Assembly (NCBI GenBank): GCA_024681875.1
Contig: JAILAA010000136.1
Coordinates: 1-6,182 of the forward strand
Origin: Prevotella sp.
Lineage (GTDB): Bacteria; Bacteroidota; Bacteroidia; Bacteroidales; Bacteroidaceae
Length of the DNA: 6,182 nt
Direction: 5' to 3'
In this document: in pieces, positions 1-6,182 of the stretch
Numbering within the stretch: position 1 is the stretch's first letter
How the letters are laid out: each line of letters begins with the position of its first letter
Translations under genes and position numbers: made by a program
The notes under the pieces: model-generated
The model's input: the letters and a program-made list of their open reading frames with translations, nothing else
Database searches by the model: none
Told to the model about the DNA's origin: nothing

Positions 1-426
1 CATGCCCATGCTCCTGTAGAAGCTTAGCGCGGGGCCGTTGCCTTCCCAGACGTTGAGGGTGATGTTGTAGCAGCCGACTGACTTGGCATACTCGCGGACG
101 TACTCATACAGAGCCTTCCCGACGTGCTTGCCGCGGGCGGCTTCGTCTACGCAAATATCGTCTATATAGAGCGTCTTGGCGTCCTGCAGCAATACGTGGT
201 CCCTGACTTCAGTTATCTGGCAGAAGGCGTGGCCTAATACCTTGCCGTCGTCGTAGACGAATATGGGCTTGCTGTCGTCGTGGAGCAGGGCTTCAAGCTC
301 TTGTTCGCTATACTTTGTCGTGTCGGGCTTGAACAGGTCTGGGCGTATTTCGTGGTGCACCATGTCTACCTGGCGCAGCAGGTCGATGATTCGCCCGATG
401 TCGGTTGTGTCAGCTTTTCTTACCAT
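1..426 (-). CDS. GNAT-family N-acetyltransferase (3' end cut by window edge)
   Basis: Transfers an acetyl group from acetyl-CoA to an amine; the substrate cannot be read from sequence. The visible 142 residues start at the ATG at 424-426. An upstream ATG in the AT-rich leader is followed at once by a stop. The acetyl-CoA pyrophosphate-binding motif A is at about residues 92-106 (CVDEAARGKHVGKALYEY), where the usual R-x-x-G-x-G reads R-G-K-H-V-G. Motif B follows at 124-142 (LNVWEGNGPALSFYRSMGM), with the Asn and Tyr typical of the fold. Typical proteins of this kind are about 145-155 residues, so only a short tail is missing. It lies 43 bases downstream of the PqqD-like gene on the same strand and may be cotranscribed, but a link in function is not shown. 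It resembles stand-alone housekeeping GNATs common in Bacteroidales. Confidence 0.9.
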   Translation of the reverse strand, partial: MVRKADTTDIGRIIDLLRQVDMVHHEIRPDLFKPDTTKYSEQELEALLHDDSKPIFVYDDGKVLGHAFCQITEVRDHVLLQDAKTLYIDDICVDEAARGKHVGKALYEYVREYAKSVGCYNITLNVWEGNGPALSFYRSMGM

Positions 427-469
427 CGTTTAATTATTTGTTATTACATTTTGAATCATACCTGCGATG

Positions 470-742
470 CTACGGCTCGACTATTCCCTCTTCCAGCCAG
501 CCTGCTACAAGGCGCGACACGTCGGTGGCGGCCTGCTCTGGGCTGACGTCGTACTCATCGCAGAGTGCAGCGGTCAGCGACTCCACCGTGAAGTCGCCCT
601 GCTCGCCGGCCTGCTTCCACAGCCAGGCGGCACTCTCCGACAGGCTCAGCAGCCGGCCGAAGTCGATGCTCCCCGTCCCCTGCTGCATGATGAACGGCTC
701 GCCGCACACCTCACGCAGTACAAATTCTTTTTTCTGTCTCAT
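470..742 (-). CDS. PqqD-family protein (RiPP recognition element-like)
   Basis: A 90-residue protein with the PqqD pattern. It has an N-terminal beta part (KKEFVLREVCGEPFIM, residues 4-19), then the 'LSLSESAAWLWKQA' block (32-45), equivalent to the family's LN-x-T/S-A-x-x-I/L-W. A helical part follows, with 'TVESLTAALCDEYDVS' (52-67) and a last helix ending in 'GWLEEGIVEP'. In PQQ, lasso-peptide and radical-SAM peptide pathways such proteins bind the leader of a precursor peptide and present it to the modifying enzyme. Stand-alone copies of unknown role are common in Bacteroidetes. The start at 740-742 follows an A-rich stretch (AAAAAAAGAAACCA). Family assignment is good; the partner is unknown. 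The only other candidate pathway members here are the nucleotidyltransferase and small membrane protein upstream and the 56-residue peptide gene far upstream. Confidence 0.85.
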   Translation of the reverse strand: MRQKKEFVLREVCGEPFIMQQGTGSIDFGRLLSLSESAAWLWKQAGEQGDFTVESLTAALCDEYDVSPEQAATDVSRLVAGWLEEGIVEP

Positions 743-796
743 TGGTTTCTTTTTTTGTAGTTAAACTCTGTCATAGTGGCATTTGTGGTCGCTTCG

Positions 797-906
797 CTCA
801 AAATTATAAGAAAATTGAATCAAAAAATGATAAGAAAAATTTTCCAGAGCGCAATCATATCAAGAGATTTTCATAATTTTCAAATCCATTTTTTTATAAT
901 TTTGAG
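797..906. repeat. 110-bp AT-rich palindromic element with 18-bp terminal inverted repeats
   Basis: Bases 797-814 (CTCAAAATTATAAGAAAA) and 889-906 (TTTTTTTATAATTTTGAG) are reverse complements with a single mismatch. The inner arms continue with weaker complementarity (811-820 against 883-892, 8 of 10). The flanks are small GC-rich palindromic sequences, GGTCGCTTCGCTC on the left and GAGGCCAAAGGCC on the right. No coding potential is seen. It could be a MITE-like or dispersed intergenic repeat, or a transcript hairpin between the nucleotidyltransferase and the PqqD gene. Each terminal repeat carries TAATTTTG, a match to the Bacteroidetes -7 box, pointing outward (799-806 minus strand, 897-904 plus strand). 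Confidence 0.6.
799..806 (-). promoter_or_regulatory. Candidate -7 box upstream of the PqqD-like gene
   Basis: The minus strand reads TAATTTTG, which fits the Bacteroidetes -7 pattern TAnnTTTG. It would start a transcript about 50 bases before the PqqD start codon. The nearest upstream TTTG (821-824) is only 14 bases away rather than 19-21, so the -33 part is not convincing. The box lies inside the inverted repeat, so it may be a coincidence of AT-rich sequence. Confidence 0.25.
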
Positions 907-951
907 GCCAAAGGCCGATCAACGAATGATGACGGAGTAGTTACTTATAAA

Positions 952-2118
952 TTACCAGGTCTCAGGGTGCCGGCGCAGCGACAGCGAGCGGTACTTGATG
1001 CGCAGCGGCAGCTTGCGCACGATGCGCCACCAGTAGTCCACTTCTGAGGACAGCTGGGCACCGATGGTCGACGGCTCAAACCACGTGAGCTGCGCCTGCA
1101 TCTTCTTCTGTGCCCAGAACCACTGCCACAGGTTCATGTCGGCCCGACGGTCGTGGCGGCTGAAGTTGCCGCGCATCAGAACCTGACCGAGCATCCACCG
1201 TCCCTTCCGTGGCGCCGGCTCGACCGGCAGCAAGCAGTCGCCGTCGGCGTCAAACACCTGCTCTAATACCCACATCAGCGCCCGTGCCGTCGTCAGCAGG
1301 CCCGTCTCGCTGAGGCGGGCCGCCACGTCGCGGCGCTCCTCGCCGGAGCTGTGGCGCAGCAGCAGGTAGTAGTCGGTCAGCTGGCGCAGGCCGATGCCCT
1401 CGCCGCGCAGATGGTGGCGGATGTGGGCCAGCTGCATGACTAATGAGAAGCGCAACGGCGGCACACGGAAGCCCTCGTCGCAGAGCGGCACGCCCTCGTC
1501 CAGCACACCCTCCAAGTACGCCTGCAGCCGGCGGTTGCAGGCGGGCAGCGTATGCGAGGGCGACGGGTGGAAGTGTACCTCCACCTCGATGCCCTCACTG
1601 TTGGGCGGCAGGTGGAGGTGCTGGTAGCTGACGGCCGTCTCGTCGTCGGCCATACCCAACCGTCGCAGCAGTGCCGTGACGCGCTCCTGTCCGCCCGACA
1701 CCCAGATGTCGATGTCGCCGGGCTGGCGCAGCGACGGCGTTGGGTAGTAGCGGGCGTTGGCCTGCCCCTTCAGGATGGCCGTGGCGTGACCCTCGCCCTC
1801 AAACAGGCGGGTCAGCCGGGCCGACTCGGCATTCATCTCGCCGTTCAGTAGCGCGATGTTCTCGGAATCGCCCATCCAGCGCAGCTTCAGTGGCAGCGGC
1901 GGACACAGCGTCTTGTCCACCTTCTGCAACCGCTGAATGCCCTCGAAGAGCACACCAACCAAAGAGTGGCGGCAGCTGTCCTCAAACAGCTGCTGCCACT
2001 CGTCTGCAGTATAGCGGGGGAAGGCATCAGCATCCAGGCCCAACGAATAGCTCAGCATCGACAACAGACGGAGGTCCTGCTGACTTACACCCGATAACGA
2101 CTTCTTCACTTTTTCCAT
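952..2118 (-). CDS. Uncharacterised nucleotidyltransferase family protein (NTP_transf_5 type)
   Basis: A 388-residue protein with the fold signature of DNA polymerase beta-type nucleotidyltransferases. 'ILKGQANARYYPTPSLRQPG' (115-134) leads into G-D-I-D-I-W (134-139), where D135 and D137 are the likely metal-binding pair. 'EVEVHFHP' (178-185) supplies a probable third acidic residue. A helical C-terminal part contains 'RHHLRGEGIGLRQLTDYYLL' (234-253), a conserved block in this family. The substrate is not known; relatives often sit in peptide-modification or polysaccharide loci. I chose the ATG at 2116-2118, which gives an 8-base gap after the stop of the upstream membrane protein gene. The frame stays open to an ATG at 2178, but that would overlap the upstream gene by 52 bases and add a poor N-terminus. 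GC content is much higher than in the lipoprotein gene. Confidence 0.85.
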   Translation of the reverse strand: MEKVKKSLSGVSQQDLRLLSMLSYSLGLDADAFPRYTADEWQQLFEDSCRHSLVGVLFEGIQRLQKVDKTLCPPLPLKLRWMGDSENIALLNGEMNAESARLTRLFEGEGHATAILKGQANARYYPTPSLRQPGDIDIWVSGGQERVTALLRRLGMADDETAVSYQHLHLPPNSEGIEVEVHFHPSPSHTLPACNRRLQAYLEGVLDEGVPLCDEGFRVPPLRFSLVMQLAHIRHHLRGEGIGLRQLTDYYLLLRHSSGEERRDVAARLSETGLLTTARALMWVLEQVFDADGDCLLPVEPAPRKGRWMLGQVLMRGNFSRHDRRADMNLWQWFWAQKKMQAQLTWFEPSTIGAQLSSEVDYWWRIVRKLPLRIKYRSLSLRRHPETW

Positions 2119-2126
2119 ACACGCGT

Positions 2127-2726
2127 TCAACGATTGTCTTCGTCGGAACACGAATAGAGCTCCAGAGCTAAGACACAAGCTGACAACTTAGCAACTATCC
2201 ACTGCGCTAAGCCCCATCCACCAGGCAGGCTGAAAGGACAACTTGCAATACCCGCCAACAACAGAAGTACACCTGCTGCCCGGAACTGCGAGTCGTCCAA
2301 TGTCAAGAAGTCAAATGCCAAGGCACACCACAGCAGCGTCTTTAATGCCCAAAACGCCAAGGTTACTTCAAAAAGGCCATATTGAAAACCTACTGCATAC
2401 CCCACGATAGCCACCAGATGGTAGGCGATGGTGAGAACTATAGCCACCAATGGCAGTCTGTCGCGACGCGCCTCCATGTCGGAAACGGTCGTTGCCGCCC
2501 ATATCAACAGGCCATTGCCTACCGTTCCAAACAGATGTCCAGACATATTCAGCCGAGCGATTGACAATCCAAATAAGGAGGCAATACCAGCCTGAGAGCT
2601 TCCAAGTATGAACAACAGCGTTGATAGCAATGCGGCAATAAGTGCTATCCTCAAGTATCTGGTCGTTCTGAGTCTTCTGGCCCAAGAGCGGTGGTGATGA
2701 TGCTGTCTATGTCTTGTATTCGTCAT
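2127..2726 (-). CDS. Membrane protein of unknown family, His-rich N-terminus
   Basis: I do not recognise this family. From the ATG at 2724-2726 it has 199 residues. A basic, His-rich N-terminus (TNTRHRQHHHHRSWARRLRT) is followed by about six hydrophobic segments, at roughly residues 24-42, 66-83, 91-113, 119-141, 148-165 and 172-191. It ends in a short acidic tail (SDEDNR). The charge pattern suggests a cytoplasmic N-terminus. A longer start at 2747 (7 extra residues, MRQTKFI) is possible and has a GGAGGAG ten bases upstream. However, bases 2735-2800 encode, in another frame, a copy of the nucleotidyltransferase N-terminus, so the longer start looks fortuitous. The gene sits between that remnant and the intact nucleotidyltransferase, with an 8-base gap to the latter, so the two are probably cotranscribed. 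The His cluster could bind metal, but nothing else supports this. Confidence 0.7.
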   Translation of the reverse strand: MTNTRHRQHHHHRSWARRLRTTRYLRIALIAALLSTLLFILGSSQAGIASLFGLSIARLNMSGHLFGTVGNGLLIWAATTVSDMEARRDRLPLVAIVLTIAYHLVAIVGYAVGFQYGLFEVTLAFWALKTLLWCALAFDFLTLDDSQFRAAGVLLLLAGIASCPFSLPGGWGLAQWIVAKLSACVLALELYSCSDEDNR

Positions 2727-2820
2727 AATAAACTTCGTCTGCCGCATACCGAGGAGGCTCCTCCGACATATTCAGCGAATAGCGCAGCAGCGATAGCAGA
2801 TTCCCGTCGCGTTTGTACAT
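2707..2820 (-). pseudogene. 37-codon remnant of a second nucleotidyltransferase N-terminus
   Basis: The ATG at 2818-2820 opens 37 codons ending at TAG 2707-2709. The stretch LLSLLRYSLNMSEEPPRYAADE closely matches LLSMLSYSLGLDADAFPRYTADE near the start of the intact nucleotidyltransferase (its residues 18-40). Bases 2773-2800 and 2041-2068 agree at 23 of 28 positions. Similarity stops at about base 2735. The rest of the domain, including the catalytic GDID block, is absent, and the membrane protein ORF begins instead. The ORF starts 3 bases after the lipoprotein stop, so it could still be translated by coupling. I read it as the left end of a duplicated gene that was truncated or replaced. A functional short peptide is the alternative. 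Confidence 0.55.
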
Positions 2821-2823
2821 TAG

Positions 2824-3307
2824 TTAGAAAGCGAAGACCGAACGCGCATAAATGCCGACACCAGGCTTGTTGCCGTAGTACCAACCGCTGTAGCCGTAGC
2901 CCCCTTCGTCATAACCGGTGCTAAAGTTGTATTCGTACACATGGTTTTCATCACGTTCCGTACACGACCAATAGTAGTCTTTTATATTTTCCCCACCACG
3001 AGTGCTGATGACATCACGAAGACCAGAAATTTCTACATAATCCCAACGACTTTCATCAAAAATTATACCTTTTACGACCTTGCACGCTGCAAGCTTCTTT
3101 TCCCACTGGTAGGCAGAGCACAAGAACCAAGGACTGCAACTGTGTTCAGCAGGGTCATAACCTTCGACGCTATAACTTGCACAGTAATTGAAGGCAGGCC
3201 AATCTGTATTATTTCGAGCATTACGATACTGCAAGCCCGACTCGGAGGCGGCTAGGCCAGAACCATCCCACTGATAATTATTATAACATGTACCAGTACC
3301 CCCCCCC
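2824..3307 (-). pseudogene. Out-of-frame C-terminal domain of the fimbrillin-like lipoprotein
   Basis: This frame resumes at the G tract and encodes about 160 residues. It contains G-L-A-A-S, 'SPWFLCSAYQWEKKL', 'YWSCTERDENHVYEYNFSTG' and a final 'ARSVFAF'. This is the layout of the C-terminal domain common in Bacteroidales fimbrillin-type proteins: W-F-L-P-S-x-x-Q-W, then Y-W-S-S-T/S-E, then an ending like V-R-P-V-L-A-F. It resembles DUF1566-like or formylglycine-enzyme-like folds and is probably an extracellular binding module. It contains no methionine and has no ribosome binding site of its own, so it is not an independent gene. The upstream sequence GLAIAMKDAINGCSWGG continues naturally into it if one G is added. 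It holds six Cys, more than usual for such domains. Confidence 0.8.
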
Positions 3308-4397
3308 AACTGCAACCGTTGATTGCATCTTTCATCGCAATGGCAAGGCCGTGGTTGTAGGCAGTCAGCGGGGACACATTGTTCTCCTCTCCTGTATCAT
3401 TGCCTACGTATGCTATCATGGCAACGGGGGTGGGAACGCTGGAAGGATTCAGATCCACAAATATTCCGTTGTAGAAATCTCCATAGTACCAAACACCTTT
3501 CTCCAACGTGGTTGTGAATGTTCCACTATAGGGAAGACCGCCAAGACTGCATGAATAGACCTTGTTGTCCGGGAGTATCACATTGCCAATATCTGATGTC
3601 GTGATATTTGCAGGGACAAAATCTTTGACATAAGTATAGTCAGCATATGCGTCTTTCATATTTGCGGACTGACAGCTAAAGGTGAAGGTGGAATTCTCGA
3701 CGGACATCAGGGCTATAATGAATTTCTGCGTGGCTTCATCGGGGGTGATAGTGTATTTATATGTACCGTTAGTGATTTCCAACTTCTTAGTAGAAATGAG
3801 TTTTTCCGTCCCAGCCTGACGAAGACTTAAAATAAAGAGGCTCACCTGAGGCTCCATAGTGACGTCGTTTTTCAGTGTAGCATTCGTACCATCCACATTC
3901 ATTGTGGTTGAAGCAGTCTGGAAATCAAGATTATTGTCATTGATATATTTCAGCGTGCCTTCCTGCGTCATCAGGGCATCGGGCTTGAAACCGCCCTTAC
4001 CGTCGTGTGCCGAGTAGGGATATACAAACTTCACGGCGTTGTCGCCCCTCTTGGGAGAAATGAGCGTTGCCCTGAACTTGGCAGAATAATTATCATATGT
4101 GTTGACTTCGGTAATCGTGGCGATAGCTGTAGCGTGGCCATTATTAGCCGTTTCGTAGTAGATGGCAAACTGATCGTCTACGTCCCAACTATCTTCGCCA
4201 ATGTGATCGAGATCATTTATGGTGCGCGTCGTGTTGCCCTTGCTGCCAAGGGTGCCAACCAGCTCAACGACGTCATTCTCCGTGGGCGTCTGCTGCTCAG
4301 GGGTTATATCACTCGTCATGTCATCACCGCCGGAACAGGCAGCCATTACGGCACCTGCCAACAGCAGAACAGCCGTATAAAACTTATTCTTTCTCAT
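3252..4397 (-). CDS. Fimbrillin-family surface lipoprotein, frameshifted near its C-terminal domain
   Basis: The 381-residue product starts with a lipoprotein signal (MRKNKFYTAVLLLAGAVMAA, then Cys21). The following SGGDD resembles the acidic lipoprotein export signal that sends Bacteroidetes lipoproteins to the cell surface. After a disordered linker (about 25-45), the Mfa/fimbrillin-like domain begins with T-R-T (57-59) and 'EDSWDVDDQFAIYY' (68-81), and contains 'VKFVYPYS' (122-129). The likely role is an outer-membrane-anchored fimbrial subunit or adhesin. From W364 the frame enters the G9 tract and ends in a hydrophobic out-of-frame tail (VLVHVIIIISGMVLA) not expected in this family. Adding one G restores a 524-residue protein. 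Base composition is clearly less GC-rich than in the flanking genes. It lies 37 bases after the 56-residue peptide gene, in the same transcript. Confidence 0.85.
   Translation of the reverse strand: MRKNKFYTAVLLLAGAVMAACSGGDDMTSDITPEQQTPTENDVVELVGTLGSKGNTTRTINDLDHIGEDSWDVDDQFAIYYETANNGHATAIATITEVNTYDNYSAKFRATLISPKRGDNAVKFVYPYSAHDGKGGFKPDALMTQEGTLKYINDNNLDFQTASTTMNVDGTNATLKNDVTMEPQVSLFILSLRQAGTEKLISTKKLEITNGTYKYTITPDEATQKFIIALMSVENSTFTFSCQSANMKDAYADYTYVKDFVPANITTSDIGNVILPDNKVYSCSLGGLPYSGTFTTTLEKGVWYYGDFYNGIFVDLNPSSVPTPVAMIAYVGNDTGEENNVSPLTAYNHGLAIAMKDAINGCSWGGVLVHVIIIISGMVLA
3299..3307. repeat. Homopolymer tract of nine C (G9 on the coding strand)
   Basis: Nine consecutive C on the plus strand lie exactly where the lipoprotein reading frame breaks. 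With nine G on the coding strand the frame gives TGG GGG GGG GTA and runs 15 further codons to a TAG at 3252-3254. With ten it gives TGG GGG GGG GGT ACT and continues for 157 more residues. Tracts of this length are prone to slipped-strand mispairing and to sequencing or assembly error. Confidence 0.95.
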
Positions 4398-4434
4398 TGT
4401 CTACTATAATCGTTATTGTTTACCTTGTTGTTAA

Positions 4435-4605
4435 TTACTGAAACGGATTGGTAACACGATCTATTGTAAAATCGCCAAGCATCAGGCGGCTACCACCACC
4501 ATCGGACGGAACCTCAACGGGCGAACTTCCCGACAACAACTGTGATTTACCACTCAACTGCACGACACTCATGCGTGCTTCATTGTAGATTCTTTTCTGT
4601 TTCAT
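4435..4605 (-). CDS. Small protein (56 aa) encoded just ahead of the fimbrillin-like gene
   Basis: The ATG at 4603-4605 and TAA at 4435-4437 frame MKQKRIYNEARMSVVQLSGK, then SQLLSGSSPVEVPSDGGGSR and LMLGDFTIDRVTNPFQ. It has no signal peptide or membrane segment. It starts with a short basic region, followed by a 'V-V-Q-L-x-x-x-S-Q-L-L-S-G-S' core and a Gly/Asp-rich polar tail. Small proteins of this shape (basic start, 'E-V/V-x-x-QLLA/SGS' core, low-complexity tail) are common in Prevotella and Bacteroides, often beside fimbrillin-type or other surface lipoprotein genes; that is from memory of the group, and their function is not known to me. It is the first gene after a strong promoter and is probably cotranscribed with the lipoprotein. 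It could be a secreted or modified peptide, a partner of the lipoprotein, or a regulatory leader product. Confidence 0.75.
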   Translation of the reverse strand: MKQKRIYNEARMSVVQLSGKSQLLSGSSPVEVPSDGGGSRLMLGDFTIDRVTNPFQ

Positions 4606-4614
4606 TTTTTGCGG

Positions 4615-4674
4615 TTAAAATTTGGTTGATAATTGGTTGATATTTGGTGGATAAATAGTCGTAGAACTGCACAT
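4615..4674 (-). other. Possible 19-codon leader ORF in the 5' untranslated region
   Basis: An ATG at 4672-4674 opens a 19-codon frame ending in TAA at 4615-4617, nine bases before the start of the 56-residue protein. It spans the three 11-bp repeats and reads MCSSTTIYPPNINQLSTKF. No ribosome binding site is obvious and the composition is unremarkable. It may be chance; if translated, its stop would place ribosomes close to the next start. Confidence 0.2.
4621..4653. repeat. Three tandem 11-bp repeats in the leader
   Basis: The plus strand reads TTTGGTTGATA, ATTGGTTGATA, TTTGGTGGATA without gaps; the coding strand units are TATCAACCAAA, TATCAACCAAT and TATCCACCAAA. The array ends 15 bases before the start codon of the 56-residue protein, inside the predicted transcript. 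Units about one helical turn long could be a repeated protein-binding site, or an unstructured region that keeps the ribosome binding area open. Confidence 0.8.
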
Positions 4675-4714
4675 TCGGCGATACCCTGCCCCCTACCCTT
4701 CTCGGGCGCGGGTG

Positions 4715-4746
4715 CAAAATTACAAAGAATGTGTGGAACGGCCAAA
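4715..4746 (-). promoter_or_regulatory. Bacteroidetes-type promoter for the small protein and lipoprotein genes
   Basis: On the minus strand TTTG (4743-4746) is followed by 20 bases and then TAATTTTG (4715-4722). This matches the primary sigma factor pattern of Bacteroidetes, TTTG / TAnnTTTG with 19-21 bases between. Transcription would begin near 4708-4710, leaving a leader of roughly 105 bases before the 56-residue protein. The site lies directly downstream of the ccsA terminator, so the surface-protein genes form their own unit. Confidence 0.8.
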
Positions 4747-4763
4747 TATTCAGCCGTTTTTTT
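4737..4763 (+). terminator. Terminator-like hairpin on the plus strand
   Basis: AACGGC (4737-4742) pairs with GCCGTT (4753-4758) around a 10-base loop, and seven T (4757-4763) follow in the plus direction. No plus-strand gene precedes it, so it could limit antisense transcription toward ccsA or be fortuitous. The loop contains the -33 box of the minus-strand promoter. Confidence 0.35.
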
Positions 4764-4776
4764 ATGTCAGAGTCTC

Positions 4777-4797
4777 AAAAAAGACATAGCGCTATGT
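4777..4797 (-). terminator. Intrinsic terminator at the end of ccsA
   Basis: ACATAGCGCTATGT (4784-4797) is a perfect 14-bp palindrome that includes the ccsA stop codon. On the minus strand it is followed by CTTTTTT (4777-4783). A stem of five base pairs with a GCGC loop plus a T-run fits a short rho-independent terminator. It separates ccsA from the promoter that follows. Confidence 0.6.
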
Positions 4798-5577
4798 GTT
4801 GTAGGTATGAACCGACGCCCCCTGGGCACTCGGCAGATAGTTGATGCCCCACCAGCAGACCTGCAGGAGGACGAAGGAGCCGACAAGCAGCCAGAGGGCC
4901 AGGCGGGCATTGTGAACGGGCAGCTGCCGGTAATGGACATAGACCAGGTAAGCCAGCCAGGTAATAGCCGCCCAGGTCTCCTTGGGGTCCCACGACCAGT
5001 AGTGGCCCCAGGCCTCCTTCGCCCACAGGGCTCCGAAGAGCATGCCTATGGTGAGGAAGGCCAGCCCCACGCTGACGAGGTTGTCGGCTATTGAGAGCTC
5101 CTCGGCGGCAATGGCCGTCTTCTTGAAGAAGAGCAGCCAGAGGGCCATCACTGCCGCCGCGCCGAGCACGGCGTAAGCGAACATATAGACAATGACATGA
5201 GGCGCGAACCAGGGGCTCTGCAGGGCGGGCATGAGCGTCTTGTCGTGAATCTCGGGCTTGAACAGGTTGACGCAGACGAAGACCAGGGCGAGAAGGGTCG
5301 AGAACGTCAGTATCCACTTATACTTCCAGCGCGAATAGACGATGATGCCGGTGAGGGGCAGGAATAGCGAATACCAGAGCCGCGTCTCGCCCATCGTACG
5401 CAAGGGCGGACGCTCCAGCGACACCCAGTAGGACAGTATGAACGCGAAGAACACGAGCAGGCCAGCTGCGGTTGCGGCGCAGGCCAGCTGCGACTTGTCT
5501 CTCCACGCCGCCCAGGCTCCCACGGCCCACAGCACGACGGCTGCTACGGCGAAATATACGAAATGCTCCCAACTCAT
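4792..5577 (-). CDS. ccsA: Cytochrome c biogenesis protein CcsA (System II haem exporter subunit)
   Basis: A 261-residue polytopic inner-membrane protein. With ResB/CcsB it moves haem across the membrane and attaches it to CxxCH motifs of apocytochrome c outside. The tryptophan-rich haem-binding WWD signature is present as W-G-H-Y-W-S-W-D-P-K-E-T-W (about residues 190-202). External haem-ligand histidines are seen in 'SPWFAPHVIVYMFAYA' before it and in the C-terminal 'GASVHTYNT'. About eight hydrophobic segments can be counted. I chose the ATG at 5575-5577: it follows a strong GGAGGAAGGAGG with an 8-base spacer, overlaps the resB stop as ATGA, and starts the first helix (MSWEHFVYFAVAAVVLW). 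The frame extends upstream to 5664, but that part is just resB read in another frame. In Bacteroidales this pair often serves NrfA-type nitrite reductase; that gene is not in view. Confidence 0.93.
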   Translation of the reverse strand: MSWEHFVYFAVAAVVLWAVGAWAAWRDKSQLACAATAAGLLVFFAFILSYWVSLERPPLRTMGETRLWYSLFLPLTGIIVYSRWKYKWILTFSTLLALVFVCVNLFKPEIHDKTLMPALQSPWFAPHVIVYMFAYAVLGAAAVMALWLLFFKKTAIAAEELSIADNLVSVGLAFLTIGMLFGALWAKEAWGHYWSWDPKETWAAITWLAYLVYVHYRQLPVHNARLALWLLVGSFVLLQVCWWGINYLPSAQGASVHTYNT

Positions 5578-6182
5578 AGCTGCTTCCTCCTTCCTCCGAT
5601 GACAAACATACTGACGGCCCCTGCCAGCATCATGTAGATGCCCGCATAGACCAGTGGCAGCCACGGGTCGCTCACCAGCTCGAGTACCGACATCTGGCTC
5701 AGGGCGCCCATCTGCGTGTCGTAGCCGTACTGATAGATTTTCCAGCCGTCGGCCTCGCAGGGCTTGTTCACGTCGACCGTGGCCTCAATCTCCTTACCTG
5801 CCTTAGTCCGGATGCGGACCTCGGAGGCGAAGCGGCGGGGCGAGCCGTCGTCGTAGGTCTCCATGATGAATCGTTTCAGCTCGATGGTCAGCCCCGTCTC
5901 CTTGATGCCGCCTGCGGGAGTGACGGCCCGCCACTCGGGCTCGCCGACAGTGGTTATCATCTTTACCCGCTGCACGTCGGGATTGCCGAGCGTGCCCGTG
6001 GTGAGTGCGACGAAGAGCCCCACGTGGTTCAGCAGGAAGGGGACGTCGCGCTTCCAGCTGCGCAGGTGCGTCAGGCGGCGCAAGACGGTGAGCCCCAGAA
6101 CCAGCGCCACCAAGACGTAGGCAAGCACGAAGGGCCAGAACGTCAGCATGTCGTTCAGCCACGTGCCGTCGGTCTTCTGGCG
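5574..6182 (-). CDS. resB: ResB/CcsB-like cytochrome c biogenesis protein (5' end cut by window edge)
   Basis: The frame is open to the window edge, so 202 C-terminal residues are visible; an internal ATG at 6149 is not a likely start. A membrane helix (MLTFWPFVLAYVLVALVLGL) is followed by the ResB-type 'FLLNHVGLFVAL' helix with its conserved His, a candidate haem ligand. Next comes a periplasmic beta-rich region ending in 'EADGWKIYQYGYDT', equivalent to the family's G-Y/W-x-x-Y-Q-x-x-Y/F-D. A last helix (PLVYAGIYMMLAGAVSMFVI) and a short basic tail (GGRRKQL) complete it. ResB proteins partner CcsA in System II and are thought to help hold haem and apocytochrome. The stop overlaps the ccsA start by four bases (ATGA), a typical coupled operon. 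Further helices expected at the N-terminus lie outside the window. Confidence 0.88.
   Translation of the reverse strand, partial: RQKTDGTWLNDMLTFWPFVLAYVLVALVLGLTVLRRLTHLRSWKRDVPFLLNHVGLFVALTTGTLGNPDVQRVKMITTVGEPEWRAVTPAGGIKETGLTIELKRFIMETYDDGSPRRFASEVRIRTKAGKEIEATVDVNKPCEADGWKIYQYGYDTQMGALSQMSVLELVSDPWLPLVYAGIYMMLAGAVSMFVIGGRRKQL
5586..5597 (-). promoter_or_regulatory. Strong ribosome binding site deciding the ccsA start
   Basis: The minus strand reads GGAGGAAGGAGG, two Shine-Dalgarno cores in a row, 8 bases before the ATG at 5577. Such a clear site is unusual in this phylum and fixes the ccsA start. It lies within the last codons of resB, so translation of the two is likely coupled. Confidence 0.7.

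Follow-up and report, generated by a model that had tools for sequence, protein, structure and literature searches.

How does a surface lipoprotein gene of Prevotella come to be split by a run of nine guanines, and could that run act as a switch? In the poly-G contingency loci of Campylobacter, Neisseria and Helicobacter, a G tract of hypermutable length within a surface-protein gene gives rise to translational phase variation; Bacteroidales are known for surface variation by DNA inversion. The gene in question lies on the reverse strand of contig JAILAA010000136.1 of Prevotella sp. (assembly GCA_024681875.1), whose positions 1 to 6,182 were analysed as a whole and are referred to below as the window. 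The reading favoured here, with slightly less than even confidence, is that a real slippage mutation has occurred in the gene of a tip-pilin-like adhesin and that the tract most likely serves as an ON/OFF switch of the C-terminal adhesive domain. The gene is made up of the following parts:

3299..3307, reverse strand: G9 homopolymer (C9 on the forward strand), the site of the frame break, read from the sequence.
3252..4397, reverse strand: proximal open reading frame (ORF) of 381 aa, comprising signal peptide, fimbrillin-type part, the first ~41 residues of the C-terminal domain and a frameshifted tail; fold assigned after the model of homologue P0003.
3308..3428, reverse strand: section of the C-terminal lectin-like domain that precedes the tract (about residues 324-364), from domain comparison.
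3252..3298, reverse strand: hydrophobic tail of 15 residues plus stop codon, present in the nine-G frame only, from translation.
2824..3298, reverse strand: distal frame of 157 codons plus stop, the remainder of the Lcl_C/C-type-lectin-like domain, out of frame with the proximal ORF, from identity to homologues P0002-P0006; without ATG.

The proximal ORF crosses the tract and ends in CSWGG followed by the hydrophobic tail (VLVHVIIIISGMVLA). A preliminary description of the locus had given the nine G of the coding strand, a hydrophobic tail of about 15 residues and the 524 residues to which ten G would lead, and all of this holds, as do the fimbrillin-like lipoprotein, the frame break and the intact distal coding capacity that it reported. 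The length of a homopolymer within the ORF sets the frame, as in poly-G genes that vary by slipped-strand mispairing. No second run of at least seven G or C occurs anywhere in the window, and GGG is used in 3 of the 44 Gly codons outside the tract. With 0.035 runs of at least nine expected under a first-order Markov model of the window (0.025 for C and 0.010 for G), the tract is rare for one window and ordinary for a genome scan.

Is the distal frame still part of the same gene? Its codons, up to the stop ending at position 2824, are free of stops and further indels. The claim that it contains no Met and cannot be a separate gene is borne out as far as ATG goes; two TTG and one GTG codons make it likely rather than strictly proven. 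A separate downstream gene was rejected because there is no ATG and because all other database matches (66/66) are continuous ORFs that extend past the break point. Identity to P0002, P0003, P0004, P0005 and P0006 amounts to 82, 83, 82, 66 and 62% for the proximal piece and to 74, 76, 60, 71 and 41% for the distal piece. An intact distal frame that is 60-76% identical to its four nearest homologues points to a break that arose lately, can still be undone or stems from a sequence error.

The break does not fall exactly at a domain border, as had been proposed: the C-terminal domain starts at about residue 324 (PVAMIAYVG) and spans about 200 residues, and the break follows W364, ~41 residues inside it, in a variable loop. 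According to the model of P0003, the family combines a fimbrillin fold with an Lcl_C/C-type-lectin-like domain, arranged as in the tip pilins of type V pili. In structure comparison, 4eps matches the full length of this homologue model, and 8q4e, which has the fold of the Lcl C-terminal domain, aligns over 121 residues with a root mean square deviation of 2.5. By sequence, the best match in the PDB was again chain 8q4e, named HbP1, at E 0.12, and Lcl_C (PF07603) was matched below its cut-off by one of eight homologues (P0006; E 0.042, 14.6 bits vs 34.9). Type V tip pilins of Bacteroidales are described, in the part of the source drawn on here, as fimbrillin-fold lipoproteins with a C-terminal lectin-like ligand-binding domain (PMC12632263). 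The present protein shares the fimbrillin-type fold (homologue model), an N-terminal lipidation signal (a lipobox-like MAAC in the signal peptide of the proximal ORF, by eye) and a predicted C-terminal ligand-binding domain. In contrast to these pili, no stalk or anchor pilin gene was recognised among the eight ORFs of the window, though Pfam misses this pilin-like protein too, and the protein is a candidate tip-like protein from its sequence and the model of a homologue. Its C-terminal domain presumably binds a glycan.

Within the family, three pairs of homologues (P0002/P0004, P0007/P0010 and P0032/P0033) are 98-99% identical in their N-terminal part and 45-59% identical in the C-terminal domain; both parts are kept in other pairs, such as P0040/P0047 (88 and 95%). 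The fimbrillin part thus stays stable while the binding domain seems often to be exchanged or to change fast, in keeping with a molecule under pressure to vary.

In the proposed mechanism, the gene would encode a surface lipoprotein whose fimbrillin-type part is held by a lipid anchor and bears a variable Lcl_C/C-type-lectin-like binding domain. Within a Gly-containing loop of this domain, a newly arisen G homopolymer would slip and shift the frame, so that the nine-G copy would yield a truncated protein that keeps the fimbrillin part but has an incomplete binding domain. No decay is seen in the distal domain, which argues for a recent shift; no other base interrupts the run, so that a second slip could restore the frame, and it is for this reason that an ON/OFF switch of the C-terminal adhesive domain appears most likely, provided that back-flipping were frequent. 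The indel would then be biological rather than an artefact and would revert often.

Do such tracts recur elsewhere in the genus? Genomes of the genus of G003, presumably Prevotella, were searched, and 268 of 299 contain at least one G9. Tracts of at least nine G or C were taken from two sets of genomes, 90 tracts from each, and a tract was called split by a mechanical test of whether a coding tract leaves the frame open. Tracts sharing the same 40-base flanks entered the count once, and near-edge cases were dropped (7/180 G tracts and 3/86 A tracts); of 6000 random draws in the fetched loci, 4271 were kept after short loci and sites near homopolymers had been removed. Among the 173 remaining G tracts, 103 lie outside long frames, 43 are in frame and 27 are split; set 1 contributes 21 in-frame and 14 split tracts, set 2 contributes 22 and 13. 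The random sites comprised 3207 in frame, 143 split and 921 others. Coding tracts are therefore split in 27/70 cases as compared to 143/3350 random sites (odds ratio 14, p 2e-18). An earlier, looser definition of splitting had been applied to 87 tracts, L050-L052 not among them: 15 were called split and 23 in frame, with 47 others and 2 edge cases, and the random sites then numbered 155 split, 2293 in frame and 575 others. In 15 of the 90 set-2 loci (e.g., L143, L163, L167, L180, L194, L125 and L129), the tract lies within ~520 bases of a contig end, perhaps reflecting assembly breaks or artefacts at G tracts. Split tracts are also found within contigs longer than 2.6 Mb (L084 in G065 and L037 in G199). 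At the level of the class, these results lend support to the proposal of phase variation that the preliminary description had made for the window gene, and the recurrent frame-split G tracts make slippage credible, not proven.

The genes hit by the tracts were assigned by Pfam. Both pieces were scanned for 19 of the 27 split tracts, one piece for two (L118, L155) and neither for six (L025, L036, L066, L077, L180, L192); of the 43 in-frame ORFs, 20 went through the same scan, and L024, L033 and L034 were read by eye. The same family flanks the split on both sides in genes of DUF1919 (L090), Acyl_transf_3 (L095 and L105, the first piece of the latter below the curated cut-off), a LacI-type regulator (L101) and Reg_prop (L159), and in L120 a histidine kinase part precedes the tract and a response-regulator part follows it. 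Among the one-sided matches are a glycosyltransferase 2 (L084), a TonB receptor (L061) and, in L043, a pair of Acyl_transf_3 genes. Three split calls (L088, L130, L187) probably represent neighbouring genes rather than broken ones. In-frame tracts occur, among other genes, in Acyl_transf_3 (L096, and L063 of G014, where the tract lies inside the match and the frame is open), TonB receptors (L060, L108), TamB (L156), an aquaporin-type MIP (L042) and a guanylate kinase ORF (L046), so that the tract genes are not all surface genes. Acyl_transf_3 holds 6 of the 88 non-edge set-1 tracts (binomial p ~9e-8 against ~0.24% of the DNA, i.e., 199 copies of an assumed 1.05 kb each in 88 Mb of 27 genomes), a figure to be read with the family having been picked after the data were seen, three of the six tracts lying in G129, and L050-L052 coming from genomes outside the 27.

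A number of observations weigh against a maintained switch, both at the window gene and across the genus. Among relatives, the readable DNA (L001-L021) contains no run of at least seven G or C, and Gly runs longer than three are absent from the C-terminal domain of the 66 homologous proteins; runs of three Gly occur there in P0005, P0024 and P0059, that of P0024 in the same loop as the tract. Searches with the proximal ORF turned up relatives in 12 of 398 genomes of the genus (E 1e-15) and in 2 of 298 relatives of G001 (E 1e-25), none close enough to provide DNA of an allele; among the database homologues, identity does not exceed 81%. A scan of genome contigs with the proximal ORF returned eight stretches and no relatives, a scan of IMG/VR gave nothing useful, and a phage tblastn with P0003 found no match. 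As far as can be seen among the readable relatives, the tract appears private to this allele, which speaks against an old, maintained switch. The preliminary description had held that homologues lacking a homopolymeric run of variable length would contradict phase variation, and in part the relatives do so; its proposal stays plausible. In addition, the window tract occupies a late position in its gene, in contrast to classical ON/OFF tracts, which are placed close to the 5' end (PMC2823697). Nine-A tracts, of which 83 were non-edge (17 in frame, 5 split, 61 other), are split in 5/22 coding cases. The difference between G and A is not significant (odds ratio 2.1, p 0.21), so that a special role of poly-G is not supported and the excess of split frames may be a general property of homopolymers. 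A home-made acyltransferase profile, seeded with L063, L096 and L043 and matching there by construction, found nothing at set-2 tracts or at A9 loci, though it missed L105 as well. Finally, among six relatives of L095, four have three Gly with mixed codons at the site of the tract and two lack these Gly, which makes the L095 tract look young rather than maintained; no series of tract lengths was obtained from L095 acyltransferase orthologues.

Alternatively, the gene could be a recent pseudogene, damaged by a one-off slippage in a fast-evolving and probably redundant adhesin gene and now drifting or fixed in this strain, without any selected switching. This is possible, though doubtful. Besides the apparent privacy of the tract, it draws on the fact that A9 tracts split genes as well and on family members that seem to share contigs (P0006, P0007 and P0012, longest contig 65523; P0009, P0021, P0046 and P0048, longest contig 91093; co-location inferred from the equal lengths), which suggests redundancy. 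It accounts less well for 157 distal codons without a stop or a second indel and for Acyl_transf_3 genes that carry G tracts in both frame states. An error of consensus or assembly, in which the true tract length differs and the gene is intact, is unlikely. Homopolymers are typical sites of such errors, the continuity of all other database matches would be expected if the gene were whole, and the set-2 tracts near contig ends hint that G tracts are tied to assembly trouble. On the other side stand the split tracts within the contigs longer than 2.6 Mb and the five Pfam-recognised neighbouring genes of the window, in which no frame break was found. It is very improbable that the nine-G form is decoded, with RNA polymerase slippage or -1 ribosomal frameshifting yielding some full-length protein: a zero-frame G GGG GGG, by eye a possible slippery heptamer, stands in register before an intact distal frame, but the homologues are continuous ORFs and so need no frameshift, and the downstream RNA structure is unremarkable (z -0.54), for which a strong frameshift-stimulating structure was rejected.

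The surroundings of the lipoprotein gene differ from it in composition. Upstream lies one further small ORF:

4435..4605, reverse strand: ORF of 56 aa upstream of the lipoprotein gene, with tblastn relatives in L003 and L001.

By tblastn, the relatives of this ORF likewise stand upstream of a family member (L003, 65% over 49 residues; L001, 47% over 45 residues). Downstream, at 470-2747 on the reverse strand, follow a PqqD-like gene, an NTP_transf_5 gene and a membrane-type ORF of 206 aa, and a PqqD relative is likewise found downstream of the lipoprotein gene in L003 (2069-2212). The G+C content of the lipoprotein gene (2824-4397) is 46-47%, as compared to 61-65% in the PqqD, NTP_transf_5, ccsB-like and resB-like genes, which suggests a recent import or a variable locus. 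The C-terminal end (2824-2970, reverse strand) resembles by eye the variable region of lectin-fold proteins diversified by diversity-generating retroelements (DGRs). A DGR target is not supported as far as the search went: a comparison of G003 with the 3' end of its L003 relative gave the self-match alone, so that no template repeat was found there (the window's own genome was not searched), and no long direct repeat surrounds the RVT_1 gene of G003 (L274).

How would a switch of this kind compare with known systems? With the poly-G contingency loci it would share a G tract in a surface-protein gene in which a change of one base shifts the frame; it differs in being a candidate from one sequence, with a tract that is late in the gene and unseen in relatives, in a Bacteroidales host. 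The late position resembles that in Helicobacter canadensis, where a homopolymer in the later part of an ORF causes C-terminal phase variation of a protein that is still begun, and where tract lengths varied in the read data (PMC2823697); the present case, in contrast, consists of one assembled sequence, and a whole binding domain would be exchanged for a tail of 15 residues. In Bacteroides, belonging to the same order, surface genes undergo stochastic variation by invertible promoters (PMC11868660; PMC12632263), i.e., by DNA inversion and not by homopolymer slippage, and the passages on Bacteroides drawn on from a phase-variation review cover temperature-dependent shifts, invertases and promoter inversion (PMC11868660). 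In B. fragilis 638R, an acetyltransferase-related gene is described as frameshifted within four consecutive C, and the authors raise slippage as a possible cause (PMC3090145). This is likewise a homopolymer indel in a surface-polysaccharide gene of Bacteroidales, albeit in a short run and another gene and as a strain difference only. A putative phase-variation mechanism, unnamed in the preprint passage, is mentioned for the FSD genes of Ornithobacterium hominis (PMC12139837). Among the papers listed in the literature search, no title or opening of an abstract reports poly-G phase variation in Prevotella.

A possible broader role of homopolymer tracts across the genus is a more interesting lead than the window gene alone. 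Tentatively, and with considerable doubt, poly-G/C contingency loci might across the genus switch surface acyltransferases, glycosyltransferases, TonB/SusC-type receptors, two-component regulators and pilus-tip-like adhesins, including the window gene, in which the lectin-like domain would be switched and the fimbrillin part kept. Should even a fraction of these frame-split tracts switch, a large genus of gut and rumen would possess a recombinase-free means of varying its adhesins as well as the decoration of its surface, and some genes that look like pseudogenes would be OFF states.
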